Part shown: piece after piece, positions 17,604 through 63,379 of the stretch
How positions within the stretch are numbered: the stretch's first letter is position 1
Layout of the letters: every line of letters begins with the position of its first letter
DNA from: Asterias amurensis
Taxonomy: Eukaryota > Echinodermata > Asteroidea > Forcipulatida > Asteriidae
Length of the DNA: 64,000 nucleotides
Assembly (NCBI RefSeq): GCF_032118995.1
Contig: NC_092657.1
Coordinates: forward strand, 11,387,891-11,451,890
Reading direction: 5' to 3'
Program-made: the position numbers and the translations under genes
The notes under the pieces: model-generated
What the model was told of the DNA's origin: nothing
The model's input: the letters and a program-made list of their open reading frames with translations, nothing else
Database searches by the model: none

Positions 17604-18662
17604 ATGATGGAGCATAGATTGGGATTAGCAGTCCTGTTCACATCGGTTTTTCTCTGGCTCTACTTCGACAGCGCGTCAGCACAGCGTACAGGGAGCCTGT
17701 CTTTGTATACGATTTCATCTTTCCAAAACCCAGACATCAACACCAACAAACTGAATCATATTCTTCTTCATAGCCAATCGGGTAGTGTGTACGTTGGGGC
17801 GGTTAACGCAGTATATCGGCTCAACAACGACTTGGAACATCAGAGTAATGCCAGTACAACGTCCACTTGCGAAGATGAACGGAATTGTGTAAACCACAAT
17901 GAAATACTCATTGTTGAACCGTTGAGGAATGCACTGATTACTTGTGGGAGCCAGACTGGGCAATGTCAGCTGAGACATATAGAGGAATTGACGGTTACAG
18001 CTGAGATTTATACAATTGTAGCATCAAATGAAGACAAGACAACAATTGGCATCTTGGCACCGGGACCTTGGAACATAGACTGGTTGTATGTTGCTGCTAC
18101 ATTTATAAGTACTTCTCCCAAAAATTCTATTCCTCCAGTATCGAGGAGAGCTTTGGGTCTGGAAGTACCAGTTGCACAACTACTGTTTGCAAGAACAGGC
18201 TATGATACAGTCAATTTCAATAACGGCTATAAGAGTGACCCTTTTGACATAACTTATGTGTATGGCTTTTCATATAACGGTTTTGTTTATTATGTCACTC
18301 ATCAAAATGGCTTGTCCAAAGTGGTACGGGTTTGTCACCAGGCTAACAGGCCAGTGTCAACCCGTCCAGACTTGAATGCCTACACGGAGATTACCATACA
18401 ATGTGGCCAAGGATCGAGTGAGTATCCCTTAGCCCAAGCAGCTCATGTGGGACCAGCAGGACCCAACATCGCTACGTCATTGGGAATTGACTCACGTGTC
18501 TTGATGCTGTATGCAGTCTTCACCAAGGATGACAACTCGGCTCTCTGTATGTTCAGTATGACTGACATCGAAGGTGCATTTCTTACCGCTGTTGATAACT
18601 GCGTTAAGGGGACTGGGGGAGTCAGTGTCAACCTTCTGTTAGGAAATCGCTGTAATTCCTCG
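17604..18662 (+). CDS. Receptor exon 1: signal peptide and most of Sema domain
   Basis: 353 codons, phase 0 at the end, donor TCG|GTAAGT. It starts at the ATG at 17604; an upstream in-frame GTG is not used. The signal peptide is hydrophobic ([16 protein letters not shown]) with cleavage likely after ASA. Sema features: [14 protein letters not shown] (blade 1), CxxxxxxxxCQLR-type disulfide cysteines, and [17 protein letters not shown], which resembles the FVYF strand of MET and plexin. A single large Sema exon also occurs in vertebrate MET. Confidence 0.92.
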
Positions 18663-21600
18663 GTAAGTTCCAGAATTTTGTCAAGCGGGGCACATTTCCT
18701 ACTAAATGTTGACCAGCACGTGTATTTCGCGCCTACACTCCCTTTTTCAGTTTATTTAAAGGCCTACATGACCAAGTTTGATCCGGAAAAACAAAATCAC
18801 CATCCGGCTGCCACATTGTCATTCATTTATCAAAAATTAACAATCTTTTGCAAAAATTTACGAGCTCATTTAGTTAAATAATTTCCCGCCTTTACTTCTT
18901 GCAGAATGCTCCTGATATCACTCCATTCCTCTGTGACACATTCGGGTTGTATACATACGCCGATAATCCCAACGCAGTGGAATCCACACCTTTGCTGAAA
19001 CATGCAGGGACTATGATGTCATCGATAACCACAACCATTGAGCTGGACCATACTGTTGCTTTCATTGGAACTTCATTTGGATCGTTGTTGAAGGTTCGTA
19101 ACTATACCATTTTTTTTTTTTTTTTTTTTTTACAGATTCATGAGTTATATAAGCTTAAGTTAAGGGGACATTACCGATTTTTTTTTTTTGGACATCAAGG
19201 TTGCTGACAGTGTAGGCACTTTATGTAAAGGATTGTCGGCCAAACATTTTCTTGAGATAAATATGAAATTAGTATCTGCTAATTGGTGCACCGATCAACA
19301 AAACAGAATTACAGATTCAGATTCCAACTAGAATTTTCAATCATCATAGGCCTTACTGACCTAAATTTACCACCTATCACTTACCACTTACAGTTTATCA
19401 ATGGTTAAGGGAGGAAAACGCAGCAGACATAACTTTATGTTTGCAAACATTTTGATGTTCTTTTAAAGTAAAATTCATAATTATGGTAATTACAATCAAA
19501 CGAAAATATAACTGCAAAAACTTGATGCCAGTAATATTATTATTGATCAGGTACACATAGAGGGCGGTACATCAGCCCGGCATTACGAGAGCATTGATCT
19601 TGGAGACGCTCCAGTACTCAGGGATATTTCAGTGACTGACACAAATCAACAGATTTATGTCCTTACCGAACAACAGGTGAATTGATCTTAAAGGAACATT
19701 GCATAGTTGTTATTTGCTAACAAGACAGTTGCTGGTAGTAAGCACTTTAGTTAACCCACTTTGTGAAAGAGTCTGTTTCGTGTAAGAGTCGGTTGTGTGT
19801 ACGCGCGCGCGCTTATAAATATATAACGCGCGCGCTTAGAATTAGGTTACGCGCTGTTACTAATAGCTTTGAATTGCGTTCCGCGTGATAACCTTGCGCG
19901 CCCGACACGCGGAAGCCAGCCGGTTATAAACACTGGTCATTCTCAACCGTTTAAACACCCCCACGTGACGCGCTCTCTACCAACATGAGTAGAGAAACTG
20001 TCTGGGGTATTTATGAATGCTTAATTTATCATACACTCAAACATGGCCCTAAGTGAGTAAACTCCGTAAACATTAAGTTTGCAAAGACACTTCTTTCATC
20101 ATAGTTAGCTTAAATTTGTTAATTAATTCAAAGTTATATCTGAAACATCTGAAACTACTGGCTGGTACGGTTGGTCACTTCTGTTATTTTCACTTTTGGA
20201 GGTTTATGTAGACCAAGCAAGTCGGCTGGTGTTCACTTGAGTGAACAAGCTTGCGTAACAATTGACTTAAGGAAATTAAACAATATCGCGCCATTAGTGC
20301 AAAATAATGGAGCGATTTTAACAATAGCATGACGTCACAGGTGTGGGTTAAGTCGCATAATGCCCTCGGTGAACGTGGGTACGAATGTCGCGCACCTCGG
20401 GCATTATCCTATACATAATCCACCATAAAAATATAAACTGACAAACCTGAAGAAGTTTCAGATCGATCGGCCTCTGGGTCACAAGAACATATTGAAAAAC
20501 GATCAGACATTTTTGCATGTCATCGATTTAAAAAAAAAATTAAAATTAGAGATTGAGAGTTTGTGAACAAACTCAAGGTGTTCGGTTTCCGGGAGTAAAA
20601 GCCTGGATTAAAAAACAAATATGACACCTTGCTTTGCTCTCAAGATTTGTAATAAATGATTCAAATTGCAAAAACTGTCAAAACCACATGATAACGTCAT
20701 CTAGTAAAAGTGTATGTTTGGTGACGTCATCGGTAATATTTGTTTTAAACCAGACCTTTGCCAGACTTGTATGGTGTGATGGTAAAGCATCAAAGGATGT
20801 TTATTTCGACCTAAAAGACAATAAACCACGCCCTTTCAAATCATTTCACAGTCACTTCCCGTTTAAACAGGTCAAAAGGTCAACGAAAATTCACCAACAT
20901 ATCCATTTCTGTCAAGTACGTAAAGCCTTTCATATGATGTACAGATTGTCAAAATAGCTTATGTAGTTTAGGAAATATGAACTTAGGAAATATTGACTGA
21001 CGACTGAAGAAAAGACTGTAAGGGACATATATGTTTTAACCGCCTTGAACGAAGACTATTCTTCATGAAGCTTTTTCGCGCTCTATTGATAATATTTAAA
21101 AAAAGAAGTAAAACAAAAACGTGGATCAAAAATAATGATTTTTTGAAATAATAATTTGAATTTGTATTACTCAAGAATGGATGACGTCATCATGACCTAA
21201 CTAACACATTATTCCACTCCTAATGCATATCTAACTATGTGCGAAGTTTCAAGTTCATACGAGTTTGGGAAGTGTGCTTTTGTTCGAGGACAAGGGACGA
21301 AGAGAAGAAGAAGATGAAAATCTGGATTGTTTTATTGATTTGTTTGTACTAAAGTTTTGTTTAATCCGGCAGTTTATTTTAGCAAGACCACTCCTAATTG
21401 CTTGGGCCTTAAGCTTTAACCATTCTGTTTTCTTTGAATGTTTTGTATTGTAACATCCATGTCTGTGCATGGAGGTAGAAATAGATTAGTTTACGTAACG
21501 TCCTTTCCTACTAAAGACATTTTGAAAGGGCTTATGTTATTCCAGAGATTTTTTTTCTTCAAAATATTTAACTCAAAATAACTTGGATAGTTGTTTTAAC

Positions 21601-24600: not shown

Positions 24601-27600
24601 ACTTTTTAAGAAAACTGTAATGTTGAGAACGCCTCGAACGCAGACTAAAACGATCAAAACGTGGTACAGAGCGTGACTATGCTCCTCAATGCACCGCATA
24701 CTTACACGTGGTGACCGCAATGCACCGCTGCTTACACGTGGTGACAAAGTACGTGTACATGTAATCGTAAATTTTTTACGCGCAATCAATGGGGGAATTT
24801 TGTAGTTCTTTATACATGAATTTTGAAATTTTCAACCTCTCTTTTGAGCCGGAAGACAACATCAAAATGGGGTCATGTTTGTGAGGTGTTTACGGAGTTT
24901 TTAATGCCCTTTCCGATGATGTATTGATTGTAAAAATCCCTTATGTAGATCAAAAGTTATGATTTTTTGAAATAATAAACTTTGAATTAGTGTATCTCGT
25001 CAACTGATGACGTCATCGTGACGTAACAACTTTTGCATCATCTACTGGTTATTGTCTACCTGTGTGCCAAATTTCAACTTAATGCAAGCTTCGCAACTAT
25101 GCTTTTTCTTGCGGACAATCGACAGCGAGAAGAATAAGAAAAAAAAGAAAAAAAATAGATATAGTGTTTGTAAAAACAAACACTAGGTGTTCGGCTATTG
25201 TTGGGTCAGTGTTTGAATAAATGAAACAAGTATTGTTAGTATCCCGTCAAATTACAAAGAAATCTAAACCAAACAGTTTTCTCGATGTGTAATAATTTTA
25301 TGGGGAGCATCAAAAAAGTGTACATTTCAACCTAAGAGCCTTTAAATAATGCCTTTTCAAAGCATTTTACAGGCTCTTCCAGTTTAAAAAGGTCAAAAAG
25401 TCAAGAGAAGGTCACCAACAAACCCATTTTTGTGGAATACGTAAGGCCCTTTCATATGATGTATAGATTGTCAAGATAGCTTTTGTGTTTGAGGAAACGT
25501 GAACTGATGAATAATGGCGACTGGAGAAGAGACTAACTAACCAGAAGGGAAATGTTTGTTGAAAACGCCTTGAAAACAGACTACGTACGTAAAGCCCTTT
25601 CATATGATGTATATATATTGTCCAAAAAGCTTTTGTGGTTGAGGACATATGAACTTGTGCATAATGACGACTGGAGAATAGACTAACTAACCGAAAGGGA
25701 AAACGTGTTTGTTGAAAACGCCTTGAAAACAGACTAAAAACGAGGCTATTTATAGGAGAAAAAAAAATTAATTAACAAATTAAATAGTAAAAATTTTGGT
25801 TGCCACGTGCTCTCCCATCGAAATACTGACTGGGCCCGATTTTGCTTAACCTCAGTGACCGGACGAGAACCGGTGTTATCAACGCAGTATGGTCGTAGAT
25901 AAAACCAAGTAATTACTTTTGAAGAAAATTGACATTGTGTTGAGAACGTCTTGAACGCAGACTAAAACGATCAACACGTGGTGCAGAGCGTGGTTATGCT
26001 TCTCAATGCACCGCATACTTACACGTGGTGACCGCAATGCACCGCATGCTTACACGTGGTGACAAAGTACATGTACATGTAATCGTAAAATCTTTACGCG
26101 CAATCAATGGGGAATTTTGTAGTTCTTTATACATGAATTTTGAGATTTTCAACCTCTCTTTTGAGCCGGAAGACAAAATCAAAATGGGGTCATGTCTGTG
26201 AGGCGTTTACGGAGTTTTTGATGTATTGATTGTAAAAATCCCTCGTGTAGATTTAAAGTTATGATTTTTTGAAATAATAAACTTTGAATTAGTGTAGCTC
26301 GTCAACTGATGACGTCATCGTGACGTAAAAACTTTTGTATCATCTACTGGTTATTGTCTACCTGTGTGCAAAGTTTCAACTTAATGCAAGCTTCGCATCT
26401 ATGCTTTTTCTTGCGGACAATCGACAGCGAGAGGAAGAAGAAAAACAAAAAAAAAGAAAAAACCGAACAATAACAAAGAGTTGTTCGGGCTGTTACCCGA
26501 ACACCTAAAAAAAAAAAAAAACGAACAAAATCAAAGAGTTGTTCGGGCTGTTGCCCGAACACCTAAAAAACCGAATAAAATCAAAGAGTTGTTCGGACTG
26601 TTGCCCGAACACCTAAAAACACGAACAAAAATAAGAGGTGTTCGGGCTGTTGCCCGAACACCTAAAAAAACGAACAAAAATAAGAGGTGTTCCGGGCTGT
26701 TGGCCCGAACACCTAAAAAGAAAAAAAAAAACGAACAAAAATAAGAGGTGTTTCGGGCTGTTGGCCCGAACACCTAAAAATATCACTTTCTATTATGAAA
26801 TTACGAGTTCGTAAGACAACACCCTTACACCAGTGCAGGTCTGGTACTTTACGGAGGCAACGAAGGCGATTTCCTCCACGCCCCCTGGTCATTGCATTGG
26901 TGCCCTTGAATTGCTCCCGTAAAAATTTACAATGCCCTCATGGGGTGCCCTTTACTAAGAAGCAACTGCCAATAACAACATGCCTAATGGTGCCCTTGCC
27001 CTTTCAAACACACAGTGATTATATTTAACTTTTGTTTCAGCTTCTGAAACTAAGAGTTGAAATTTGCAATCAGCACACAAGCTGTGAGACGTGTATCGGG
27101 ATGGACGGAGACCCGTACTGTGGATGGTGCACGCTGGAAAACAAGTAAGAACTCAAAGACACTGCACACCTTTGGTAATTGTCAAAGAGTCTTCTCACTT
27201 GGTGTGTCTCAACATAATGCACAAAATAACAGGCCTGTGATTGAACTCAATTGGTCGTCGAAGTTGCGAGATAATAATGAAAAAAAAAAAAAAAAATTGC
27301 CACACGAAGTAGTGTGCTTTCAGATGCTTGATTTCTGGACTTCAAAATCAAATTATGAGGTCTCGAAATCAAATTCAAATAATTTTAAAGGAAAATTACT
27401 TCTTTTTCGAAAACCACGGTACTTCAGAGGGAGCCGTTTCCCACAATGCTTTATACTATCATCAGCTCTCCATTGCTTGTTACCAAGTAAGTTTTTATTA
27501 CAACAATTATTTTGAGTAATAACCAAAAGTGTCTCAGTGAACGATTTTGCCCCAGCAATTTTGCATGAGGACAGTATTTATACTGAACACATTAACTGGG

Positions 27601-30600
27601 CAAACTGAATGATAATAAATGGTGGTTTAAAGCTTATTATGTAAGTTCCTTTAACCATTTTTCTTTAAAAGCCAGTGGACACTTTCTGAACAGAACATAC
27701 ATTAAAAGTTCACAGATTTACAAAGAACTTACAGGGTTTACAGAAGGTATTATGGTGAAACTTCCCTTGAAATATTATTCCATGAAATGCTTTACTTTTT
27801 GAGAAAACATTAAAACACTATTATCAATTCTCGATATCGAGAATAACGGATTTATTTTAAACACATGTCATGACACAGCGAATTGTGCGGAAGCAAGAGT
27901 GGGTTTTCCTGTTAGTTTCTCCCGACTCCGATGACCGATTGAGCCTAAATTTGCACAGGTTTGTTATTTTATATATAAGTTGTGATACACGAAGTGTGGG
28001 TCTTGGACAATACTGAATACCGAAAGTGTCCAATGGCTTTAAATTAAGCTTATATCAAATTGCATGAGTCTGTAAAAAAAAACAAAAAAAAACGCAGAGT
28101 GGTATTAGTTACGAACCTTCAACAACCATCCAGATGAAGTTCCAACGAAGTGTGGGCCTTTGGACATTACTGTTTAATACCGATAGTGTGATTTTTTTAA
28201 TTGAGAACACCCAGTAATTTTCACTAACAACCTTTTCATGTTTTTCCGCAGATGTACCAGACGCTTGGAATGTAAGTTGGCGGATCAATCTACTTACCCT
28301 TGGCTACCGTATAATGAGACTCAGTGTGTGGCTATTAGTAGTGTACATCCATATAGAAGCTTACCGCTTACAGAACCACAGAAGACGGTGAGCCTTGCGA
28401 ACATACATTACTATTATTTACATCTTATTTTAATCAAGCTAGAGATATATTTTCGTTGAATTGAAAGTTGAAAAGTTAGTGTGCAGATTGCAGAACTATG
28501 TGGAAATTGGTCAGAAAATACAGGATACCTCATTAAAGACACTAGACACTAGCAATTATTGTCAAAGACCAGTCTTCTCACTTGGTGTATATCAACATAT
28601 GCACAAAATAACAAACCTGTGGAAATTTGAGCTCAATCGGTCGTTGAAGTTGCGAGATAATAATGTAAGAAAAGATGACATCCTTGTCAGGCGAAGTTGT
28701 GTACTTTCCGATGATTTATTTCGATACCTTAAAAATCTAAATATGAGGTATCGAACTCAAATTCGTAGAAAATAATACTTCTTTCTCGAAAACTATGTTA
28801 CTTCAGAGGGAGTCGTTTCTCAGAATGTTTTAAACTATTAACAGCCCTCCAAGGCTTGTTTCCAAGTAACTTTTTATGCTAAAAATTATTTTGAGTAGTT
28901 ACCAATAGTGACCACTGCTTTAAATGAAAGGGGAAAATATTTATCTCATTTTGATGTTCAGGGTTTGGTCACATAAAAAAACGAGTAATACTGTTAGTGT
29001 TATTTATTTTTATCTTATTTGTTAATAACAAAAACTTCGGGGAAGGGCAAAAGTAAAAAAAAAAATCACATTTATATACATGAAAGGAACACGTTGCCTT
29101 GGATCGGTCGAGTTGGTCTTTGAAAAGCGTTCGTAACCGTTTGTTATAAAATGCATATGCGTAGAAAGGTGTTGTAAAAGTAGAATACAATGATCCACAC
29201 AGACATGCCTCGAAATTGCATGGTTTTCCTTTTACCTCGTCGACTAACATGGTCGGCCATTTATGGGAGTCAAGTTTGCAAAGTAAAAGGAAAACCACGC
29301 AATTTCGAGGCATGTTTGTGTGGATCATTGTATTCTACTTTTAAAACATCTTTCTAACCATATGCATTTTATAACAAATGGTTACAAACACTTTTTATAG
29401 ACCAACTCTACCGATCCAAGGCAACGTGTTCCTTTAAACACTTTAAAATTGCAGTAAAAATTAAAATAAAAGATGGCAAGTAAACAGCAATTACACAAAC
29501 GATATACACATTCAAGAACTACCGTATAAAACATACCTCAATAAAACTAAGGCTCTAAAAGGATTCGGGTACTTGTTCAAAATGTCAACAGATTCCACAC
29601 CAAACCTACAGGGTCCGAAGACAATAACAATAGAAAGCCTTCCCGAAATACCACTTACCGAGGGGCAAAACAGTTCTCGTCCCACGTGGGTCTCGGAATT
29701 CACAATTTCATTAACCTATCTTTCTGTAAAAATGAAGCGCCTTGATAACATTGTTGGTAGATACATTCGCTGTATAAGATTTCGATATTATTACAATAAA
29801 TAATTACTAAAGGCAGTGGTAATTACTCAAAATAATTATTATCATACAACCTTTTTTGATTACGAGTAATGGGGAGAGGTTGATAGTATAAAACATTGTG
29901 AGAAACAGCTGCCTCTGAAGTGACGTAGTTTTCGAGAAAGAAATAATTTTCCACCAATTTGATTTCGAGACCTCAGATTTAGAATTTGAGGTCTAGAAAT
30001 CAAGCATCTGAAAGCACACAACTTCGTGTGACCATGGTGCGACAAGGGTGTTTTTTCTTTCATTAATATCTCGCAACTTCGACGACTGATTGAGCTCAAG
30101 TTTTCACAGGTTTGTTATTTTATGCATATGTTGAGATACACCAAGTGAGAAGACTAGTCTTTGACAATTACCAATAGTGTCCAGTGTCTTTAACCCTGAA
30201 TCCACGGAATATGTTAGGGTGCCTGCTAAGTCCTTCCATGAGCTTTACATAGAGAATTGTGTGATTCATCTATCAATTTCAGATCGTACTGACTGTAAAG
30301 CAACTCCCCGAACTTCAAGAAGGCGAGACCTACTCCTGCAAGTTTAATGATCTGCCGGTGTATCAGGGAACGACAACTGGAAATACTGTCGCATGTAGCA
30401 TTCCTCCACCAATTGATCGGCCAAACCTTCCTCCAAATGGTATATACCCAAGTTGGCATAACTCTAAATTGTTCTATGCAGTGTTATTATAAGGGAATCA
30501 ATGTGTGGTGAAGAGGTTTTCAACTAGTGATTTAAACCCGCACCGAGGCCTGGACTTGATAATTTTACCGAGACGAAGTCGAGGTAAATTATCTAGAACC

Positions 30601-33600
30601 AGGCCTCGGCGGGTTTAAACCACTAGTTGAAAACCGATTCAACACACTTTGTGGTTCCCTTCATAAATACTATTTCGGTCATAAAACATCAACACTTTCA
30701 GTTAAAAAGGTAAAATGAATGCAAAAATTATAATTATTCAATTATTTCTTTCAACACAACACCCCTCCAGCTATGAAATATTTAGGCCCTCGGGTAAACA
30801 ACTCCTTTTAAGGAGCTGCCGTTCGCGTCGCGCGTATCGCGTGATGTTGCACAACTGTTTCAGCCGTTGCTCTCGACCAATAGGAATGAAGAAACTGTCT
30901 TATACGCACAGGTGCAAGCGCGCGTGTCACGCCCATGTTTTAACACTTTTTACTGGTGTTATATCAACCGCTCAAACAACACCTCGTGATGCCCTCTCGA
31001 CCAATCAGAATGGATAAACTGTCTAACGTATTTATGAATTATTATTACTACTATTATTTATTCGGGCATTTCACAAAGAACAATAACAATACATGTAATT
31101 GCTAGTAAGATTATAGTACTAGGAAAAAAAAAATGAAAACAATAAAATAATGTTGAACAGAACTACATAAATGCATACATGCTAAATAATGGCAACTAAA
31201 GCACTGGTCCTGAATGATGATGACTGACATAAGGTTTGGATACAACAAGAAACTTGTGAATAATAGATGAGAGAGTAAGGGTAGATTGTGAAAGGACAGA
31301 AAACATGGTGGGAGGGGAAGAGCAGGAACTAGGGACAGAGACAACCTATTTCAAGCTGGCCATGATGAACAAAAGAGTACTTAAACCCGGTGACTCTAAA
31401 GTGATGTATGTTACAGCCAAGGGGGTTATTTCCTGCTTTGCGGAAGGCCAGCTGTATTTTGCTTCCCATTAACTTTCATTTAACAAAACTCCGCCGGAAA
31501 AGGGTCATCCTTCCTTTCTCACAACGTTTCGATTTTGTCAAATGCTATGGTGATTCAAATGTACACAAAGCCAAATAGTACTTTCAGTCTGAAAGTAGTA
31601 GAAACTTTCCCTTGAATTTTTACTTACTGAGGTGCTGTAGTTTTAAAGAAATGAGTAAAACACATAATTTTCGTCTCAGATTTAGCATGTAAAAACGTAT
31701 CAACCTGTTATGCTATATAGTTTTGGTATAATATCATAACGGGTTTAATGAGATTTTACATGCTAATTTTCGTCTTCCTGAGACAAATTGTGTGACTTGT
31801 TTTACTAATTTTTCAAAAACTACACAACCTCAGTTAGTAATATTTGAAGGGAAGGTATTAACTATCATTATCTTCAAACCCTGTAAGTTTAATGTAAATC
31901 TGTGGACATCTTAAAAAAAGTACCCGAAAAAAGCCAGGCTCAAAATGAGAACTGCCTGGACAACTTTTAAATAGCATACTAAATACGGAATGTACATATT
32001 TTAAATGGAGAGCACTGCATTTCGATGAAATTCTCTGCCTGAAACTATATAAATTTGTGTGTATTTCCTTTCGCGTTGGCAACTTTGTAATTAATGGGCA
32101 GGTGTGTACACATAATGACTGTCTCACTACGGCCTTTTCGAAGCCACGGGTTTAGCTTCGGCTCAGTCAAAAGCCCTGTCAACCTTCATGGAGCTTTTGC
32201 TAAAACAAAACCTCACGATTTCAAAATGACTGAAGGAGCCCGAAGCATAATGCGTGGTTTCACAGGGATTCGTGTTCAAATTTTCTGTTTTTCAGAGGAC
32301 CATGTGTACATGCAGCTTAGTGTTGTTTCCTCGGTTTCCATGGTGGCGTTTATCTCCACCGAGTTCACTTTCTATCAATGTTCACGGCACAAAAGGTAAG
32401 TTTGATCCCATTGTATACTTGCATTCCACTCTAAGCAGACAAAAACCCATTTCTGATGAGCGGGCCATGAAAAACCATGGCACACTAATACACCATTACT
32501 CTAGGTAGGCTACACACTATACACACAACACAGGGGGATTTGGGTGCGTTCGTTTAGCTGCCCTGGGTAGACCTAGGTGTGTGGCGTTTTTTTTTTTTTT
32601 TTTCAGGAAAACCGTGGGTAATTATCTGCACACGTTCGTCTTGGAAAAAAAACCCGCCACACACCGGGGTCTACCCAGGGAAGCTAAACGAACGCACCCA
32701 TTGCTGCCTTAATGGGGCATGGATTGGGGGGGGGGGGGGGGGTTGAGGGGGTGGATAGAGGATTTCAAGTAAAAATATTCTGTTACTCAAGGCATTCCCA
32801 TTGCTTTACTAAATACATGCTTGACTGAAAACGAGGACAAACACAAGACCTTTAGTGTTCTCTTCAGACGCTCCAATCAAGAAGTCGAAGAAAATGTCCA
32901 CCCTCTTACCACAACAGTAAGAAACTCTTTGCAAGCTTCGGTGAGGCCTGCCAGCTGGCACCTTCAAGCCTATAAGGTTAATATCTGATGACAGACAAGC
33001 AGCTTGCCTGGCATTATCAGAGCAGCAGTACGTTGGTACATGTAATATACTGCTAAGTATTGCTTTCAACATTGGTCTATGAGGAAATCCCCTGGAACCT
33101 TGAAACTGTGCCACTCGATATGGATGTAGCATATAAACCGGATAAGTTAGGCCACTCAATTTCTCCATTATGTTTCTCTATCGTATAATTGAGGAAGTCA
33201 AAAAAAGGCTTTCTACTTTATTCATGAGAGGAGTAATTAACAAAAACCGTTAATTGTGCCAAAAAAAAAAAAAAACATGGCAATCTCTCTCCTATGCAGG
33301 GTTCAAGAGTGTTGTCCAAAGGCCCACACATCGTGTATCACAACTTATACATAAAATAGCAAAACTGGGAACAGTTTTGGCTCAATCGGTCAACGGAGTC
33401 GGGAGAAAGTAACGGGAAACCCTACCTTGTTTCCGCACGTTTTGCCGTGTCATGACATGTGTTTGAAATAAATACGTTATTATCGGTGTCGAGGATTGAT
33501 AATTGTTTTAAAGTTTTCTCAAAAAGTAAAGCATTTCATGGAATAATATTTCAAGGGAAGTCATTCACCATTACTTTCTGTAAACCCTGTAAGTTATTTG

Positions 33601-33773
33601 TAAATATGTGAACTTTAAATTTTTGTTCTGTTCAGAAAGTGTCCAATGGCTTATAATGGTGGTTGCCAAGTTGGGTGACAATACTCCAAGGCGCTAAAAT
33701 ATTGGTGTTAATTTAAAAGATAAATTTTGCCGCATGCCCGAAATCGAATGATGTCATTGTTATTACTTGTATT

Positions 33774-33814
<41 letters not shown>

Positions 33815-48800: not shown

Positions 48801-51800
48801 CTGCGGTGCTGTAGTTTATTGAGAAATGGGTAAAACAACGTAAAGCAAATTCGTTTTTACATGCTAAAATAATGTTCGTATCATGATCCTTCAGACGAAA
48901 ATTATTTTCATGACATTGTTTTACTCATCTGTCAAAAAAAACGGCACCTCAGCAAGTTATATTTCCAGGGAAGGTTTCTACTATCATTATCTTCAAACTG
49001 TGTGAGTTTAGTGTAAATCTGTGGACATTGTGTTTTTTGTCCTCCAAAAAGTACATCTATGAAGATATTTATCTATTTTCTGTGTAAAATTAACAGTTTG
49101 GTCGATCTGGTTGATAATCAAGTACAATACAGACCTTTAACAGTTAAAAAGTTTATTTCTTTAGTTGTGTAATGTTTAGTCAGTTCCTATTGTAAGAATA
49201 TACAACTTCCCATGTTATGGTTAATAGGTCGAGTTTATTCCAGATAATGAGAATCAACTGTTACTTTTGGGCGGCCATCTCATATGAAGAACTAGTGTGC
49301 ATCTGCTCAACGCATTTCACGGCGACCCGTTCAACACGGGAAATTCCCCTCAAATTCACACACTCGGGAGACATTTTCATCAGTTTAAGAAAAGTGATTT
49401 TGTTAAACTTACAAAGTCGCTCGGCATCGTATAGTATATATATTCCTCTTTCGAAACAGTACACTTTTTATATAAACAAGAGCCAGTAAAGAGGGGCACT
49501 TTTTGGTTGAAAAAGATGCATTTTGACTAAAATAATCAGTTTCCTATGCGGGGGTTGTCCCACTAAATTCAATGGCAAACTCGCTAGCAATCTCGCACCA
49601 CCAGAAGTCGCATGGTTTATGAAACTAGATAAAATAAGCTTTCCATCCATGTAACATGTTTTGTGATTGGTGGACTGCAAGAAGGGGCACTTTTTGTGTC
49701 AAATCATGAAGTCCGTTAGAGAGCTTGCACTACCAGAGTCTGGACTACGAGCCATATGGGTAGTGCGTTATGTGGCGGAAAGCTAGACCTCTTCAAACCG
49801 CGCGAAGCACAAACATCGTTTAATCGGAAGCGGAATACGTCGTTTGGCAAAGCTTTTTGCTGTTTTAATCCATCGATCTTTATGCCTCAACAATAAATTT
49901 ATATCTAAGAAGCATTTCGGTTCAACAATGTAGCGTTTTTAATGTCCAAAGGTATATTTGAATCGTGGAATTTTGTGCTTTTCTTCGACTCGAAAATCAC
50001 TCGACGTGGCTGGATTACTACATTTAGTTAATAGGGGTGTTTTTTGCAGAATATGTGGTGGGCATGCCAAAAATGCTAATACTTCGTTAAAAAAATGCCA
50101 AAAAATATGGGACTACATAAAATTATCATTCAACACATTAGTAGAAGGGTCCCATGTCCTTTTTTTGTTAAATGGTGTACAGAAATATCTTGACGAATCA
50201 AGTTTGTTGTGTAACATTAAACAATTTTTGTCACTGTTTATGTAAACTATGTTCAATATTTCTGTATAATAACTGTAATCTACTCTACATATGCGACTTT
50301 CAATGAAATGATTTATAACTCCTACTAACTGCAATGTTTTGTTTTAAATAAACCTTGTGCTTTCCTGCCACTTCTTACAAAGTCTAGAAGTTTGATCCCC
50401 TAAAATCTAAATGAATTGTCCCATTCCTGGCTGTGCACTCGAGCCGTTACACAGTCAGCTCACACACAGCGTGAGGGATTATCTGCTCAAAACGGGGCCA
50501 AAGTTCTTCATATGTATGAGGTGATACGTTGCATTATGGGAAGTAAACACTGGACTTGAGTCAGTCTGCTCATGGCATACTGCTACACCTATAAAGAAAG
50601 TTAGGGTAGTCTTTTCTATTCAATTTGTCTAATCAATCCTTTTTGGTAGAGGGCGGTATCAATGTTGATGCTTTTAAACGAGAAATAATTACACATGTAT
50701 TCATTCGCTTACTATGTATCTACCAGGGCCAAGTTTCATAGAGCTGCTAAGCACGAAAATTTGCTTAGCATTAAATTTATTCCTTGATTAAAACAGAACT
50801 ACCAACAAAATTTCCATATGTTTTATATTGCAATAACTTCATGCTAAGCAAATTGTTGTGCTTAGCAGCTCTATGAAACAGTGCCTTGCAGGATAGTCTT
50901 AGCAAGTCCCGATGATCGTGAAATGTGCCCATATCACTTCAGTTTACTCTTTTTCACAGTGATCAGGAGATCTTCGTAGGGTCCAATGACTTGCCTGATT
51001 CTGGTCCGTACCTCCTCGTTGGTGATATGGTCTTTGTAGGAAATGCAAAGAATCTTCCTGTAGCATCTCATTTATATGGCCTATATTATCTTCTCTAAAG
51101 CGGCTCTTAGAGTCCAGGGCCCAATTTCATGGAGCTGCTTAAGCACAAAGTTGTGATTAAGCAAGAAAATCCTTGCTTAGTAAAATCAGTTAACTGGCCA
51201 AGACTCCTCTCAATCGTTATGCTAAGTAAACAACAGCTAAACACCAGTCACAAGCAATGCATATGGCATGAAAATTTGCCCAGTAACATGTGTAAATTAA
51301 GCAAACTATTTTTTTGCTTAAGCACATTTTTTTGCTACATGAAACTGTGCCTAGGTCCCACAGGCATAGAGGAAGACGGAGATGACCAACGAGCGCATCA
51401 GTCTGACTTTTGAGCTGAGCTTGATGTTCCTGTCATTCCAGATGGGCTTCAGTTTTGTCAGTTGCTATAGACGAGTGTTATGACATTATGGGGGGAAAGG
51501 GTTTCTATGTGTAGCGGTTTACCTCATTACCTTTTTGACTTTCTCGATTTGATGGTAGGATCCAATGATCATGAATTTCCATCCAAGAATTGGACCTGAA
51601 GCTGGCGGTACTCTGATAAACATCATCGGCGTCAATATGGACACTGGTACCGAGGTCCAAGCTATGATTGATACCAATGTATCATGTGCAATCATTCGGT
51701 AAGATACGAAAAAGTCCTCCTCTCTCACTTTGTAACATAGCTTTTTCTATACTTATCTATTTACTTTTGTCGTCTTCAGTCTGATATTTTATTCTTTGTA

Positions 51801-54800
51801 TTTTGTCATCAGTATTTTGTAATGTCATTGTTCGTTTTGTCTTGTCCTTAAGAAGAAACTATTTTACACATACTATTGACTAGCAATGAGTTAACTAGTG
51901 TACGTCTATTCCCCCGTGTGTTATAAAAAAAAATATAATTATAAAAGACCTCTTGCTTGTTCTGTTTTCTGGTTGGCTGAAACACGGTCACGTGTAATGA
52001 ACTAATTATAGTGTAGTGATCGCGCGCGCGTGTTTTGCGGGAACTAGTTCCCGAGCGGGCACTAGTCTTTGTAAATAGTGCCCGGTTAAGGCGCCCTCTC
52101 TTGACTTGAGCCGTGAACAGCAACTACAAAACTTCCTTTATCTTCAAGATTTATGTTCTTGTGTCACATTTAAGACCGAGCTGTTTTATAAAACACTTGT
52201 TGACTGGAAGAATTCGGTAACTAGTGTACGTCTACTCCCCCTCGGGCCTGTGAGTGACCAGAGTAGGGGCCTATTTCCCTCGGCCATTCGGCCTCTGGAA
52301 AAAGGTCGCAATTTTGGTCAATCAAAGTCAATCGGGGGAATAGTTATCTCAGTTACTAGTTAAATCATTGCCAGTCAATTATGTGTATAATAGTAAATTT
52401 GTGGGTACAACCATGTCTAAATATCTTATAAGATATTATGAGTGGGTGTGGGCTCTGAAAAGAGCCGTATTGGTCTCGACGTTTCGAACAGTATACTCTG
52501 TTTCGTCCTCGTTGTTTGGTGGTTTGTTTGTTTGTTTGCTGTATAAAGGATGTTTTCCACAAGCCTCTGCTTACTCTAAGGAACCCCATGCTTTTGCTCC
52601 TCTCTTGTACATAGTTAATTCCAAGTTACTTAAATACACTGGACACTATTGGTAATTGTCAAAGGCCAGTCATCGTACTTGGTGTGTCTCAACAGATGCT
52701 GAAATAACAAACCTGTGAAAACTTGAGCTCGATTGGTCGTCGGAGTTGCGAGATACTATGAAAGAAAAAAACACCTTTGTCACACGAAGTTGTGTGCTTT
52801 CAGATGATTGATTTCGAGACCTCAAATTCTAAACTTGAGGTCCCGAAAACAATTTTGTGGAAAATTACTTCTTTCTCGAAAACTACGTCACTTCATAGGG
52901 AGCCGTCACAATGTTTGTTACTACCAACCTCTCCACATTACTCGTTACCAAGTGAGGTTTTGTGCTGATAATTATAATATGGAAAATCACCAATAGTGTC
53001 CACTGCCTTTAAGTTTTATTTGCTTTAACACCATAGTATTTTTGTTTACTTACTTATGTACTTTTGATTTCGTTACCTTTCTATCTACTGATCATTTATC
53101 ATTTTGTACTGTTTTCCATGACGAGTATGACAACTACTTCATATTGGGTGAACTACTCCTTGTAGGTAACGATGTTGTATTTTTCTTTTTCGTTATTTAA
53201 CATCTTCTACACTGGTTGTTCGATGCAGTATCGGATGGGCCAAATGAATCGAATCACCTTACAAAGATGAAATAATTGTGTTTCAAAAAACGACATGACC
53301 ACTGTAATCAAAAGAGGTACTTGTGTTTTGTTTTGTTTTTATGATAGGCATACCAACACGGCTATTGTGTGTTTCACCGCTGCCTCCACGGTGGGTAAAA
53401 CTGGTCGCATCACTGTTTCATTTGACGGTGCTCTGAGGAGTTCAACTGAAAACTTTACTTTTCAACCCAATCCTGATGTAATTGACATACAGCCCAGGAG
53501 GAGCATCAAGTCGTAAGTTTGTTTAATAATGATAATAATAGTGGCTTCTTATATAGCGCGCATAACCGTTACACAGTGACGCTCCTGACGCTGTAACTAC
53601 AGTATTTCCTGCAACTAGTGTGTAGTACGTTTGAATTATGAGACATGGGCCCTTTTCGAAACCACGGCTTCGGCTTTGGATTTGGCTCAGACTAGCTTGG
53701 CCCCGCGGTTGTTTTGACAATATTGCGCGTGTTTGTTTTCTTTTCGTACGCGCTTAGGGCTCCGTACAAGAGGGCGGAGCTGGAGGCCCAATCCAAAGTC
53801 GAAGCCGTGGTTTCGAAAAGGGCCCTAATACTTTTAGTACAATGCAATAGTTTACAAGGTGACATGGCGCAATGTGCAGCTAATCAAACCAGAAACACCG
53901 GTGCGAATCCATTCTCTTTTCGATAAGTGAACTGGGTTCTTTTTCGTGCGTGTTACGCAACACACGTTGTCAACGGCTTTACGTCCCACCCTAAGGACAA
54001 ATCATCATGTTTACCATGGGGTAAAAAAAAGGACATACAACAGTCACGTTAACACCATATGGTCGCCATCGGCTTCATCCTATCATATCAATTATATAAA
54101 GGGGCCAAGCTGAAGGGGCCCGCTCAACAACCCACATTTTGCCAATAGTTAAACAAATTAATACATATATCTATTTTTTTATTTGACAGCGGTGGACGGA
54201 AACTTACGGTTTAAGGAACTGGTCTATCCGTGAGTAGAGCTACGATGTTTGTCCATCACAAATACGTAAACGATAAAGGGATGGACAACATGTTTGAAGA
54301 AGTAAGTCAAATATTGATGATCCCTATTTTTAGCGGCATTAGTTCAAAAGCATTACTTTTACCTATTTTTTTTTTTTTGAAGCCCGAGAGTTTTGGGATT
54401 TATCGTATAAATTGAGAATAATATGTCCATTCAGGAAGAATTTGGTCCCCTATAGGAATACGCAATCTGAGAAGCGTTACCGCAGTAACGCTTTTAAGTT
54501 TCAAATGTTTGTGCACAAAAACTTATATATTATTTTACATAACTGCATAACTTCGAGGTGAAACGTTTCTCAACATGTTTTTTTTTTTTACTAATTGAAA
54601 GCTGCTGTAAGCTTCTTACCAATAGTTGTTATTTCCATTTTTTTCTTTTAGAGTTTACTAAACGTATATAGACCTTTCTTTTGCAACGTAACAGTCCGAG
54701 TTTTTGCCAACCCACGTTGAAAATCTATGGAAAGCCTTCAATGCAAATCAAAAACAAATCGGTACTGTTTGTAACAATGTTACCAAATTATTCAAAAATT

Positions 54801-57800
54801 GTGTTGATTTTGTTCAAAACTAAACAAATAACTATGTGAGGTATTTTATTAATTGAAAGTTTGTCGAAAATGTTGAATTTGGTTGAAACATATGTAGATA
54901 CGATTGAGTGTTTTACTAACAATCGGCCGACAATGCAAGGCGGTTTGTTTATCAACAAAAGAAAGGTCTTTACCCTCGAATAGAAACTTTTTGACGCAAG
55001 GTGGCGGCAGCAGACTTACCAGGTAAATTTCCATTGTTTACGTAGTTCTGAGCGTGCGCATATGACCGAGAAAAATGGGTTTTACCTAGTAAGTCTGCGG
55101 CCACCAAGCGTCCCAACAATATCCCATTGTGATAACGGCCATTTTGTTTCTACACCATAGTCCTGTGAGACGCATAATGATTCGATCGTGGTTTGCACGT
55201 CCCCGGCCATTAAGCTACCTGATACGATGACGTTATCATGTACTGACGTCACTGTTGGGTTTCAGTTGGATGGATTTGAAATGCTCTTAGAGACAACAGA
55301 ATTCAGCTATTGCTTGGATCCAACTTTTGACAATAACGAAGATCTTGAGGTCTCGGATAAATATTCGCTTCAAATTAAAGTAGGTGTCCCCTTTCATAAA
55401 TTTCCCCTACTTATACACACCATTATAAAGGATTGGTTGAAGAAATCTGTATTTAGACTAAGAGTAACTATAAAACAAAATATTAATAGTAAACTTGCGG
55501 GTACAACCATGGGTAAAATCTCTTTTGAAGGAGTGGTGGCTCTGAAAAGAGCCGGTTTGGTCTCGACGTTTCGAACAGTATACTCTGCTCGTCTCCCTCC
55601 AGCCATACTTGAGTTCCACATCACCAGTGGTCAAGCATTCGCCTGAAGACGAGCAGAGTATACTCTTGGTGGTTAAATTGGCTGCTCATTTGCCGAAATT
55701 GACCGTATACTGTTCGATTTAGCGTACTGTCATTCTTTTTCGTGACACACACGCCCCAAGAAGCGTCTAAGAATTTGAATGCTGCTTTGATAAATATCGT
55801 TACATTGAATGATTGTTTTGTTAAATCGAATGACGCAACATTACATTTGGTACTAATCATAAAACAAAATCGAATGACCCTTTTCAATAGCATTCGATTT
55901 CGCGCGAAATAGAATAGCTTGGTGGTTAAATTGACTGCTCATTTGCCGAAATTGACCGTATACTGTTCGAAACGTCGAGACCAAACCAGCTCTTTTCAGA
56001 GCCACCACTCCTCCAAAAAAGATTTTACCCATGGTTGTACCCCCTAGTTTACTATTAATATTTATATTTATAGTAACTCTTATTCTCCACACCATGCAAA
56101 GCTTCAAACACCATTCACTGTATTTAGACCTTTATTTATATAATTTTGATTTTTGGGGTTGAACAACGAATTCGAACCAACGATCCGCCGATTTAAAATA
56201 AAAATGAATGAAATGCTCACTAAGCGATAAACTCCAAACGGAAAGATGGCTTTATTTATTTCTCATCAACTTTGACATTTCGGATAAAACTTGTTCAAGG
56301 GATGTTTTCTACTATTTTCCTTAACCATCAATACAATACATATTGTTATGGTAATTGATGTTGAACCTCTTCATCTTTAAACAGCAACTTAAGACACAAC
56401 TGTTCACACTTGCTTTCCATACCACTTGAGAATTCCCTCTTTTCCATCTTAACCGGCTCCTTTGAATGGTTTTACACCATATTTAGTGCGCCTTTGTAAA
56501 TGCTGTGTAATTGTTATTATTATTTTAGGGGAAGAGGCTGGAGTTGGCAACCGATAAGTCCGAAGTGTGGGTCACCGTTGGCGACAAAAACTGCACAGTG
56601 ACAGAGCTGGGTAGTATCATTCTCTTTTGTACACTACCCATGGAGCGACCAGGTTCAAATAGTGCTATGGTAAGAATAGTCGTTGTTGAAGTATGTTAAC
56701 CCTAGAAAGCACCCCTGTTTTTTAACGCGCAATCGTGGCTCAGTGAGTGCAGTCATAATGGGGTTTTGTGCATAATAATTGTAACTTAGTTCAGAAATAT
56801 GAGAAAAAACAATTAAGTTATGTTATGCCTTTCCTAACTTTCTACGGATGCTACAACTTTACAAGAATCCTGAGTAGATGTTGATGGTTTTTATTTAATT
56901 TGTTGAAGATTTATTTCTGATTTTTTATTTTATTTCGATGTTTTAGTTTCAAGCTTCAGCATATGTTGATACCTTCTCCTTTGCGCGTGATTTTACCTCA
57001 ACAATCTTTGCATTCAGAATTGATCTCACTCTGTACGTAATATTGTTTGTACAATTTATTTGGTTCTGTATTGGATGTTCTATGGTCTGTGTAGCTAATG
57101 GGAGAATTTGGAACGCTAGGTAGATTGATCATAAAGTTAGGAAGAGTGTGGTGGAATCGACGGCTGTATATCACAACTTTTTTCATTTAAAGACACTGGA
57201 AACTATTGGTAATTATCAAAGACCAGTTTTCTCACTTGGTAGATCTGATCATGTGCATAAAATAACAAACCTGTGAAAACCTGTGTCACACGAAGTTGTA
57301 TGCTTTCAGATGCTTGATTTTGAGACCTTAAAATCTAGTTCTAAGGTCTCGAAACTACGTTACTTCAGTGGGAGCCGTTTTTTCTCCCCGTTACTCGTTA
57401 CCAAGTAAGTTTGTATGCTAATATATATTTTGAGTAATTACCAATAGTGTCCAGTGCCGTTAATGGTCTCCACCCTTGATGTGTTTCTTAGGTTAGATGG
57501 TACGGAAACTTAACCTTTGACATTGGTGAGGTGACCTTTCCTGCAGACGGTGTAACACTGCCATTAGTTATCATCTCATCTGTGGCCATAGCCTTACTCC
57601 TCCTGTCTGTGATCTTAGTTGCCATGTATTTCAAACAAAGGAAACATTTGAAGGGTCGTCATGAGCGTCTGTTAACCCGCATCAGACATTTTCACGAAGG
57701 TACAAGTTTTTTTCCCCCACAAAAAAAGGCCCTTTTTGAAACCATGGCTTCGGCTTTGGATTCGGCTTCAGGCTCCGTCTTCTCTAAACGCGTACGCAAA

Positions 57801-60800
57801 GCACGCGCAAATTGTCAAAACATTCGCGGGGCCAAGCTAGCCTGAGCCGAACCTGGAGCCGAAGCCGTGCATTCGAAAAGGGCCATGTATATCATCATTT
57901 CTACCACCTTTCAATTTGGTTGTATTTGAAAGTGTATTTAAAACAATAAAGAAACAAAACTACGTTTGTGCTGCTCTGTTCCTCAAGTGGCATAACTATT
58001 ACATTTCTGAATTGGATATCACGCAGAGATTCTTAACATGGCCGCAGCTAATGAACAGGCATCACCGAGTACTGAAACTCCGCATTCTATAAAATCTTCA
58101 CAGCAACCAGTCGTTCTCAACAACAGTGTCAACATCGTTCCCGAAGATGTGCAAATTACATTCAACCAGTTGGACATCGGTATATTACTCGGTCAGGGTA
58201 AGCTTTGTAAAAAAATATGTATATCACAGGTTGCAATACATGGAAACGAGGTTGTTTGTTTCAGCTGCTTAGATGTAGTGATATCAACTGATAAATACTG
58301 TGACCAATATTAATATTAATAATAATAACAATTCTTATATAGAAGAGTTTGCGGTAACACCATGTATTGACTTTCTCTAAATGAGTTGGGGTGCTCCTGA
58401 AAAGAACCGTATAGAACCACCCCAACTCATTTAGAGAAAGTCATTACATGGTGTTACCGCAAACTCCTTTATATCTTATTTCCACCATGCAAGGTTTCAA
58501 ATCCTACTAATTCTTATATAGCGCATTTCAGAAAGAACCTTATCAATGCGCTTTACATTAGTGCCTGGGTCATACGGCCAGTAACATCCCTTGTTAATGT
58601 TTCTCGGCTCCCATGGGATTATACAACATGGGCAACTCTTTGTATCGCTCCAAAGGCTTTATTCATTCACACTATCAACGTCTACCCTCGCAGCTACCCA
58701 TTTACATTTCTTTACCGTTCTGTCAATAAAAAGTAATGTGTGAGTCTGTATGAGTATAGCTAAGACGTAGACATTATTTATTTTGAATCACAATCTTATG
58801 TTTTTTTTTTTTTTTTTTTTTTTTTTTTCTCATCTCTTTAATTTAAAGGTGCTTTTGGAAAAGTGTTCAAAGCTGTACTCAGAGACAGCCCCACCGGGCC
58901 ACATCGCACAGTCACTGTTAAAACGGCATCAGGTGAATGTACTTTAGGCCCGATTGAGTAATTTTTGTAGACATCTAAAAGCAAAAAAAAATATGCGCAA
59001 CAAGGGTTTTTCTGTCATTATTCTCTAACTTGCAAATTCGATGACCAGTTGAGCCAAAGTTTCCACAGGTTTGTTATTGTATGCATATGTTTGGATACAC
59101 CAAATGAGAATACTGGTCTTTGACATGTACCAAACGTGTCCAGTGGTTGCCTTTATGTGTTCCTGTTCTTCATTATCACCAAAGTTATTTGAAAACATAA
59201 AGACAAATTAACAAGTTTTGCGTTAATAATCATTTTTACTCATCCACCCACTTCTCATAGATGTCGATGACCCCGGCAACGTCATCAAATTTTTGGAAGA
59301 AGGCCTAAAAATGAAGAATTTTGACCATCCTAATGTGCTTGGGCTCATCGGACTAACCTTTGACCCAGAAGGTCAACCGCTGATCGTACTTCCTTTCATG
59401 GGAAATGGTGATCTCAAGTGTTATCTTGAGAAGTACAAACCTGAGGTAATTTCTTTATTGTCTTTCCAGTACGGGTTGTGAGTAGACTCTTTATTCATAA
59501 TAATAATAATAATAACAATAATTTGGGGGACTAATCATCCTTACTCGCAGCTAAGAGCTGAAGAACGCGGCTACAACACGTTCGAACATACAACCTTACT
59601 TGGTAACGAGTAATGGGGAGAGGTTGATAGTATAAAACATTGTGAGAATAGGCTCTCTCTGAAGTGACGTAGTTTTCGAGAAAGAAGTAATTTTCCGCGA
59701 ATTTGATTTCGGGACCTCAGATTTAGAATTTGAGGTCTCGAAATCAAGCATCTGAAAGCACGAAGCTTCGTGTGACAAGGGTGTTTTTGTGCCATATTTA
59801 TCTCGCAACTTCGACGACCGATTGAGCTCAAATTTTCACAGGTTTGTTATTTTATGCATATGTTGATATACACCAACTGTTAAGGCTAGTCTTTGACAAT
59901 TACCAATATAGTCCAGTGTCTAGAAATGAAAATTATTGCACAAATCCAACCAATGGTTTTTTGTTTGTTTGGCTGAGAACATATGTTTCACCTGTAGTGT
60001 ATGCAGACTCAGTGATCTATTTATAGAATATGATGTCATTGTTTCACGCGAGATCTCGTTGTACGAGAGCTCTGTTGTTTTGCTTTTTTAACCACGTGAA
60101 TAGAACCTGAGTATTGACGCAACCTAACACCCGTTCCTTGGGTGGATTTCACAAAGGTAGTCCTAACTTAGGACTAGTCCTAGGCAATGCTAAAAGATAG
60201 GACCAGTCCTAAGTTAGGATGAGTTACTGGTCCTAACTTAGGATCAGTCCTATCTCTTAGCATTGCGTGGGACTAGTCCTAAGTTAGGACTACCTTGGTG
60301 AAATCCACCCCTTGTCTGTTATGACCTATATTGACGACGTAAGAACACATCGCCCCCTTGCTATAATATTATGCCCTGAATCAGGATTCGTTTTGGTTTG
60401 CATTATTTGAAGGCATTGACGGTTTTGAAGTTCGCCCAACACGTCGCTCTAGGAATGGAGTACCTAGCAGATAGGAAGTTTGTTCATCGGGATTTAGCTG
60501 CGAGAAATTGCCTGTAAGAATAATTAGTTGTTCAGCAGCATAAACATTGAAATACTCTATTATGCTACTCTCACACTAGGGAGAATATGCTAGCGAATGT
60601 GCTTACGAACGGAAATATTTAACAATCGCTCAAACTTCGCAACATTCACCACAAATTCACTACGTTGACAATTCATTCTCCATCTACTTGCGAAGATTGG
60701 TCACTTTATGTTGCTCTCACACGGCGAATATGCTGACGAATATGCTATCGGAAGGACATATTCGACAATCGCTCAAACTTCGCAGCATTCGCCGTGTCTT

Positions 60801-63379: not shown

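Follow-up and report, generated by a model that had tools for sequence, protein, structure and literature searches.

A plexin-headed receptor tyrosine kinase gene in the starfish Asterias amurensis, its inverted twin and its probable exchange with plexins

A stretch of 64,000 nucleotides from the starfish Asterias amurensis (NC_092657.1, positions 11,387,891 to 11,451,890; hereafter the window, numbered from its first letter) holds what we consider, with high confidence, to be an echinoderm Met-LP receptor tyrosine kinase gene, forming one arm of a divergent inverted pair, with a tract of its Sema domain converted with a GAP plexin, and belonging to a family whose ectodomains have been repeatedly exchanged. 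The gene would encode a plexin-type ectodomain, one transmembrane helix and a MET/TAM-like tyrosine kinase that replaces the plexin GAP domain. Its domain content makes it near certain that it is a Met-LP, the name that PMC6374515 (Junqueira Alves et al. 2019) gives to a plexin ectodomain with an intracellular tyrosine kinase, although this copy is interrupted.

The gene model consists of 26 exons between 17604 and 63379 on the plus strand, which join in phase into a Sema domain, three PSI domains, IPT repeats, a transmembrane helix and a tyrosine kinase. Read one by one, every exon ends at a GT donor, an AG acceptor precedes each of exons 2-26, and the phases are compatible to 63379. The exons are listed here with the evidence for each, where "twin" is the inverted second copy described below.

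17604..18662 (+): exon 1, signal peptide and most of the Sema propeller (Pfam; twin exon 93.9% identical)
18905..19093 (+): exon 2, Sema (joined frame, twin)
19551..19676 (+): exon 3, end of Sema (joined frame, twin)
27041..27144 (+): exon 4, PSI-1, PYCGWC (Pfam, twin)
28252..28387 (+): exon 5, end of PSI-1 and linker (joined frame, twin)
30283..30439 (+): exon 6, IPT-1, TIG_plexin (Pfam, twin)
32296..32395 (+): exon 7, end of IPT-1 and start of PSI-2 (splice scan, twin)
34185..34299 (+): exon 8, PSI-2, CDWC (Pfam, twin; weak donor GTTGGT, same junction in the A. rubens protein)
39481..39615 (+): exon 9, IPT-2, TIG_2 (Pfam, twin)
41521..41616 (+): exon 10, IPT-2 (joined frame, twin)
42315..42426 (+): exon 11, end of IPT-2 (joined frame, twin)
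43711..43892 (+): exon 12, PSI-3, CRWC (Pfam, twin)
46937..47091 (+): exon 13, IPT-3 (Pfam, twin)
47697..47817 (+): exon 14, IPT-3 (joined frame, twin)
51559..51698 (+): exon 15, IPT-4 (Pfam, twin)
53348..53512 (+): exon 16, IPT-4 and start of IPT-5 (Pfam, twin)
54190..54301 (+): exon 17, IPT-5, interrupted (joined frame, twin)
55161..55379 (+): exon 18, IPT-5/6 (joined frame, twin)
56529..56669 (+): exon 19, IPT-6 (joined frame, twin)
57492..57699 (+): exon 20, membrane-proximal part, transmembrane helix and juxtamembrane part (joined frame, twin)
58027..58197 (+): exon 21, juxtamembrane part and start of the glycine loop (joined frame, twin)
58849..58932 (+): exon 22, kinase, glycine loop and VTVK lysine (Pfam, twin)
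59261..59445 (+): exon 23, kinase, alpha-C and hinge (Pfam, twin)
60413..60513 (+): exon 24, kinase, HRDLAARN (Pfam, twin)
62260..62422 (+): exon 25, kinase, DFG and DYYT activation loop (Pfam, twin)
63243..63379 (+): exon 26, kinase C-lobe, model incomplete at the 3' end (Pfam; the twin has a further terminal exon)

A Pfam search of the joined protein recovered Sema (PF01403, E 1.2e-12), PSI (two stretches), PSI_PlexinA-B, TIG_plexin, TIG_2, TIG (two stretches) and PK_Tyr_Ser-Thr (PF07714, E 7.5e-73, profile 6-231 of 258), and the plexin GAP domain (PF08337) is absent from the eight families listed at E 0.001. The three PSI domains are accounted for by the two PSI stretches and PSI_PlexinA-B, and the CxWC cores that a sequence-only reading of this DNA had placed in exons 4, 8 and 12 were all located there. 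Four of the six expected IPT domains are recognised by Pfam and the remainder rest on the alignment of the ectodomain with plexin-A4 (5l5k; residues 50-1200, E 4e-131), while the transmembrane helix is a hydrophobic stretch in exon 20, judged by eye, with the kinase downstream. Among the single kinase chains in the PDB the best match is MET (about 230 bits), followed by MER (211 bits); a 678-residue chain named EGFR matches the window protein in two stretches that total 281 bits. Pfam, the plexin-A4 alignment and the MET kinase match together support the plexin-type ectodomain on a MET-like kinase that the same reading had proposed.

A protein of A. rubens (P0001) is 93% identical to the window protein over 1148 residues and covers it from inside exon 2 through exon 26 and further. 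That, and the nearby second copy with its 26 exons, puts the architecture far beyond chance. In the best 40 matches listed, counted manually, 27 proteins combine a kinase with plexin-type TIG domains, all of them from starfish or brittle stars, 11 have the plexin cytoplasmic (GAP) domain and two have neither. The kinase is cut by the window end, its profile stopping at 231 of 258, and we do not conclude that the terminal exon is lost from this copy, since the region expected to contain it reads N. We also excluded an extra exon near 29612-29700, because exons 5 and 6 already join in phase and the A. rubens protein has no counterpart; the open stretch there resembles, by eye, the start of exon 6 and is perhaps a decayed duplicate exon.

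Some other elements of the window can be mentioned here. Histone 3' stem-loop matches lie in introns of the gene at 46623-46668 (-), 46739-46784 (+) and 55514-55558 (-), and long three- and six-base repeats at 33770-34112 end about 70 bp upstream of exon 8. Inverted arms at 1246-2802 and 14129-16412, 80-96% complementary and with 62-bp tandem arrays, enclose open reading frames with THAP, HTH_Tnp_4 and DDE_Tnp_4 on the plus strand and YqaJ pieces on the minus strand, one of them just under the Pfam cut-off. These arms and reading frames are the remains of one or more mobile elements.

An earlier description of the architecture would, by the terms of the sequence-only reading itself, speak against that reading, and there is one: it is the architecture called Met-LP in PMC6374515, the only paper of our limited literature search to treat this class by title or abstract. 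According to the consulted parts of that survey, Met-LPs are found in lophotrochozoans, with four more from the starfish Acanthaster planci, they are polyphyletic on Sema plus PSI so that several separate gains of a kinase were proposed, and their ligands are called unknown. The window gene resembles them in its complete plexin ectodomain with a tyrosine kinase, and the A. planci Met-LPs likewise group with their own species' plexin-Bs on Sema plus PSI. It differs in that the window copy carries a stop codon, and those parts of the survey contain neither a kinase tree nor any gene conversion, inverted pair or member from sponges. The inverted twin, the Sema conversion tract, the conflict between kinase and ectodomain trees and the sponge members are what the present analysis adds. 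From MET and RON, with which it shares the Sema start, the transmembrane segment and a MET-like kinase with a double-tyrosine activation loop, the gene differs by having three PSI domains instead of one PSI and four IPTs, and by a kinase that falls outside the Met clade.

We searched the genome (491.5 Mb in 23 contigs, with the window on contig C10) and found the twin head to head with the window copy, running on C10 from 11380734 down to 11338924 on the minus strand with its start about 25 kb away. It has 26 of 26 exons with GT donors, AG acceptors in exons 2-26 and the same coding length, with exons 10 and 11 taken from their first copies it contains no stop, and its terminal exon, which encodes the last part of the kinase plus a tail, is present. 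At C10 11362739-11365184 the twin has exons 10-11-10-11 in this order, all with AG/GT borders, and they are not all usable in frame because the exons are 96 and 112 nt long. A third gene, less closely related, has its exons in the same order on contig C2 at 7.387-7.410 Mb. On the same contig, at 28.94-29.29 Mb, there is an array on both strands with at least 20 matches to plexin-like Sema exons.

The window copy itself is interrupted in exon 17, for which a second acceptor can be found.

54212..54214 (+): in-frame TAA in the fifth IPT region (codon 1039 of 1537; joined frame)
54238..54301 (+): putative alternative exon 17, in frame, skipping the TAA and shorter by 16 codons (splice scan, AG 48 nt downstream)

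This TAA is the only stop in the 26-exon model and the transmembrane and kinase exons lie 3' of it. The position of codon 1039 is open both in A. rubens P0001 and in the twin, whose frame is open across the same 26 exons. That the reading phase runs on through the transmembrane segment into the kinase, as had been claimed, holds for the phases and the splice borders, but the stop precedes the transmembrane helix, and a full receptor cannot be made from the window copy unless the TAA is bypassed or is an assembly error. To regard this copy as a damaged duplicate is somewhat more probable than to assume an error or a bypass, and it would then have lost its function. A functional copy, with the TAA due to misassembly, private to the individual sequenced or avoided through the acceptor 48 nt downstream, is a possibility to be taken seriously, though not the one we would bet on. 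It agrees with there being a single stop in 26 exons, with the AG at 54236-54237 that restores the frame, and with a dN/dS against the twin of 0.22 in the kinase part. Outside the kinase part, however, dN/dS is 0.53-0.82, the window copy has 30 amino-acid changes since the split against 16 in the twin (a plain count, over the sites where A. rubens could serve as reference), and among the 120 matches listed there is no A. amurensis-named Met-LP of high identity.

The two copies are similar enough that one might ask if the twin is the other haplotype, misplaced beside the window copy, and the low silent divergence over exons 2-26 (dS 0.040, with dN 0.0205) and a 7.3-kb block of 99.0% identity would fit that. 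We find it unlikely, as there is no run of N between the copies, exons 10-11 are duplicated in the twin, and the intron insertions differ; for example, about 6.2 kb of intron 3 (20546-26775) is missing from the twin, whose sequence is continuous there. Inside this stretch are 5S rRNA matches above the gathering score at 23349-23465 (-) and 25782-25900 (-), and it is possibly a 5S-derived mobile element.

The ectodomain of the window gene is in layout that of P0002, an A. amurensis GAP plexin with a 100% match over 344 residues in the genome, whose gene is on C2 and not on C10. The two also share a tract of the Sema domain, and differ in that P0002 has a RasGAP where the window gene has a tyrosine kinase and in that exons 17-20 group elsewhere.

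18050..18308 (+): gene-conversion tract of 259 bp in exon 1, Sema (98.1% to the GAP plexin, 84.9% to the twin)

On the 5' side of the tract the window gene is 78.8% identical to the GAP gene and 98.4% to the twin, and on the 3' side 89.2% and 94.6%, respectively. The longest run of sites uniting the window and GAP genes in DNA, with P0002's own exon, is 18, compared to a maximum of 13 in 100,000 shuffles, and three core windows, each of 50 codons, show silent differences of 0.00-0.09 from the GAP gene versus 0.16-0.38 from the twin. A scan of 986 aligned sites had its best 150-site window at residues 94-243, with 143 matches against a maximum of 132 in 5,000 shuffles within conservation classes; for three control pairs scanned in this way, p was 0.27, 0.40 and 0.63. 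Along the protein, identity to P0002 is 82% in exon 1, 71-79% in exons 2-4 and 45-75% in exons 5-16, and on the tail side 22-26% in exons 17, 18 and 20 with 45% in exon 19. The tract is thus very likely shared by gene conversion. As to its direction, the outgroups side with the twin at two of 13 amino-acid sites and with the window and GAP genes at three, the other eight being uninformative.

It could be objected that P0002 is a chimeric gene model. In the DNA of C2, the exons for residues 961-1189, the transmembrane exon and the next two, in which the GAP domain begins (residue 1281), are ordered on one strand, with matches of 98-100% where they do not run into introns. The DNA check covers the stretch between residue 961 and the beginning of the GAP domain, and there the ordered exons speak against a chimera and show the GAP gene to be more than a prediction.

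The near-identity of part of the Sema exon to that of a plexin can also be brought up for another fate of the window copy, i.e. a secreted ectodomain that acts as a decoy and binds ligand without signalling, and the frame is indeed open from the start codon over Sema, three PSI and the first IPTs to the TAA. A stop with many exons downstream is a standard target of nonsense-mediated decay, and here nine further window exons follow it, which makes a decoy quite improbable.

For the ectodomain trees we hand-picked 36 of the 302 sequences, of which 29 had enough sequence for the Sema tree, and left the twin out; the rows are mostly pipeline-predicted proteins, with the Asterias genes checked in DNA. 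In the tree of exons 5-16 the kinase label changes at least nine times, six of them forced by well supported branches, and in the Sema tree six times, five of them forced. GAP plexin P0002 is joined to the pair of the window gene and A. rubens P0001 (100/99), and in the trees of exons 1-3 and of exons 5-16, where the twin is not included, it is the nearest sequence to the window gene after the A. rubens orthologue. Similarly, in Patiria two kinase proteins, P0005 and P0016, form a group with the GAP plexins P0028 and P0029 (100/98; the contigs differ in length), and in sponges the GAP plexin P0224 falls together with two kinase proteins of Halichondria (100/99; the order of the three is weak). 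Constraint tests on 26 starfish, brittle-star and hemichordate rows rejected the nine starfish kinase ectodomains as one clade (p-AU 8e-94), and also the five nearest kinase ectodomains together without P0002 (p-AU 0.010). In exons 17-20, where the program warned of long branches meeting, P0002 instead pairs with the Patiria kinase P0003 (99/97), and P0018 and P0004 are the partners of the window gene (99/98). The block trees conflict and blocks of one gene have different nearest relatives, as exchange or conversion would leave them, and it is likely, judging from these sequences, that kinase and GAP genes have repeatedly exchanged ectodomains.

Kinase domains were found in 280 of the 302 sequences. 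A first tree of 59 domains, hand-picked for spread, gave three clades: echinoderm Met-LPs, sponges, and Met with the lophotrochozoan Met-LPs. A second one was built from 40 of the 59 rows together with MER, AXL and TYRO3 from PDB chains, after 19 rows (long outgroups, Corticium and eukprot kinases, and near copies) had been dropped. The 10 echinoderm Met-LP kinases form a single clade (100/98), Mets and lophotrochozoan Met-LP kinases form another that excludes them (98/97), and the sponge kinases make up the remaining one (100/99). The best tree has the echinoderm clade splitting off ahead of the TAM, sponge and Met kinases, at 93/85, which is under the starred level. Uniting the echinoderm with the lophotrochozoan Met-LP kinases was rejected (p-AU 0.008), and so was uniting them with the echinoderm Met kinases (p-AU 0.024). 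A union with TAM (AXL/MER/TYRO3) was unrejected (p-AU 0.132), and the term MET-class, used in the sequence-only reading, is therefore too strong. The separation of echinoderm and lophotrochozoan kinases agrees with the consulted parts of PMC6374515, and the tree adds that the lophotrochozoan ones fall with Met. Within the Met clade, among molluscs, is also the kinase of P0243, a protein with Sema, PSI, TIG and kinase listed for the mite Halotydeus destructor, which may be genuine or a contaminant, although PMC6374515 found no Met in Ecdysozoa.

The sponge receptors (Halichondria P0048 and Ephydatia P0228) resemble the window gene in having a tyrosine kinase, IPT repeats and three PSI cores (CxWC) spaced by about 150-160 residues, and differ in that their kinases and ectodomains both form separate sponge clades; Pfam gave no Sema hit for either at E 0.01. 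The sponge kinases with plexin ectodomains are intermixed with sponge kinases bearing other ectodomains. In Halichondria panicea, P0048, P0224 and their relatives, which include kinase and GAP forms, are on contigs of equal length, 6,759,720, and so by this measure on one contig. A limited search of the consulted sponge and plexin literature found no description of such receptors.

Two explanations of the architecture had been offered in the sequence-only reading, an ancestral state from which MET descends and a lineage-specific exchange. The first would mean that a plexin gained a kinase once before Bilateria and that MET later lost PSI-2, PSI-3 and two IPTs, while the starfish gene kept them. 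The same architecture in the annelid Paralvinella (P0046), in P0045 and P0121 that group with it, and in the two sponges speaks for this, as does the place of the lophotrochozoan Met-LP kinases inside the Met clade, and a sister relation of the echinoderm kinases to Met and lophotrochozoan Met-LPs was unrejected, with p-AU 0.192, or 0.149 with the sponges added. The rejected union of echinoderm and lophotrochozoan Met-LP kinases goes against it, together with the ectodomains, where those of starfish group with starfish plexins and those of lophotrochozoans with plexin P0127, and with the mixing of the sponge kinases. Given these topology tests, we do not take a preserved ancestor of MET as the leading reading and give it little chance of being true. 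Lineage-specific and repeated exchange between kinase genes and plexins is favoured by the sequences, because the echinoderm kinases are one clade outside Met, kinase-tailed and GAP-tailed starfish ectodomains are mixed, and sponges have the same combination. That two unrelated genes, one plexin-like and one for a kinase, were joined by eye can practically be dismissed, for although the model was built from genomic DNA, the idea is refuted by the A. rubens protein, which spans from the interior of exon 2 past exon 26, and by the twin with all 26 exons in the same order, and many starfish proteins have this architecture.

In the intact relatives, the Sema propeller would grip a ligand, most likely a semaphorin-type dimer, that may pair two receptors so that their kinases could cross-phosphorylate on the DYYT loop. 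With a tract near-identical to that of a GAP plexin on another contig, part of the propeller appears to be kept common to a kinase and a GAP receptor by gene conversion, as seen in the DNA, with a functional meaning that we can only suggest. Behind the ectodomains, which seem to have been repeatedly swapped with plexins, the conflicting trees of mostly predicted proteins point to one starfish and brittle-star kinase lineage. We lean slightly towards the view that starfish have one semaphorin-reading head on two tails, with one kinase lineage having repeatedly swapped ectodomains with GAP plexins and interchromosomal conversion keeping parts of the propeller alike, and that a like alternation of tails on a single ectodomain lineage arose independently in sponges.

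If this is true, the output of the receptor is a swappable module. If conversion keeps the propellers of the kinase receptor and the GAP plexin alike, shared ligands are to be expected, and one semaphorin could thus drive two kinds of output. The kinase tree sets the echinoderm kinases apart from both the lophotrochozoan Met-LPs and the echinoderm Mets, and the sponge proteins put the combination outside Bilateria, which is absent from the 2019 model as given in the consulted parts of PMC6374515. The two matters raised there, what the ligands of Met-LPs are and whether the kinase was gained repeatedly, can now be tested.
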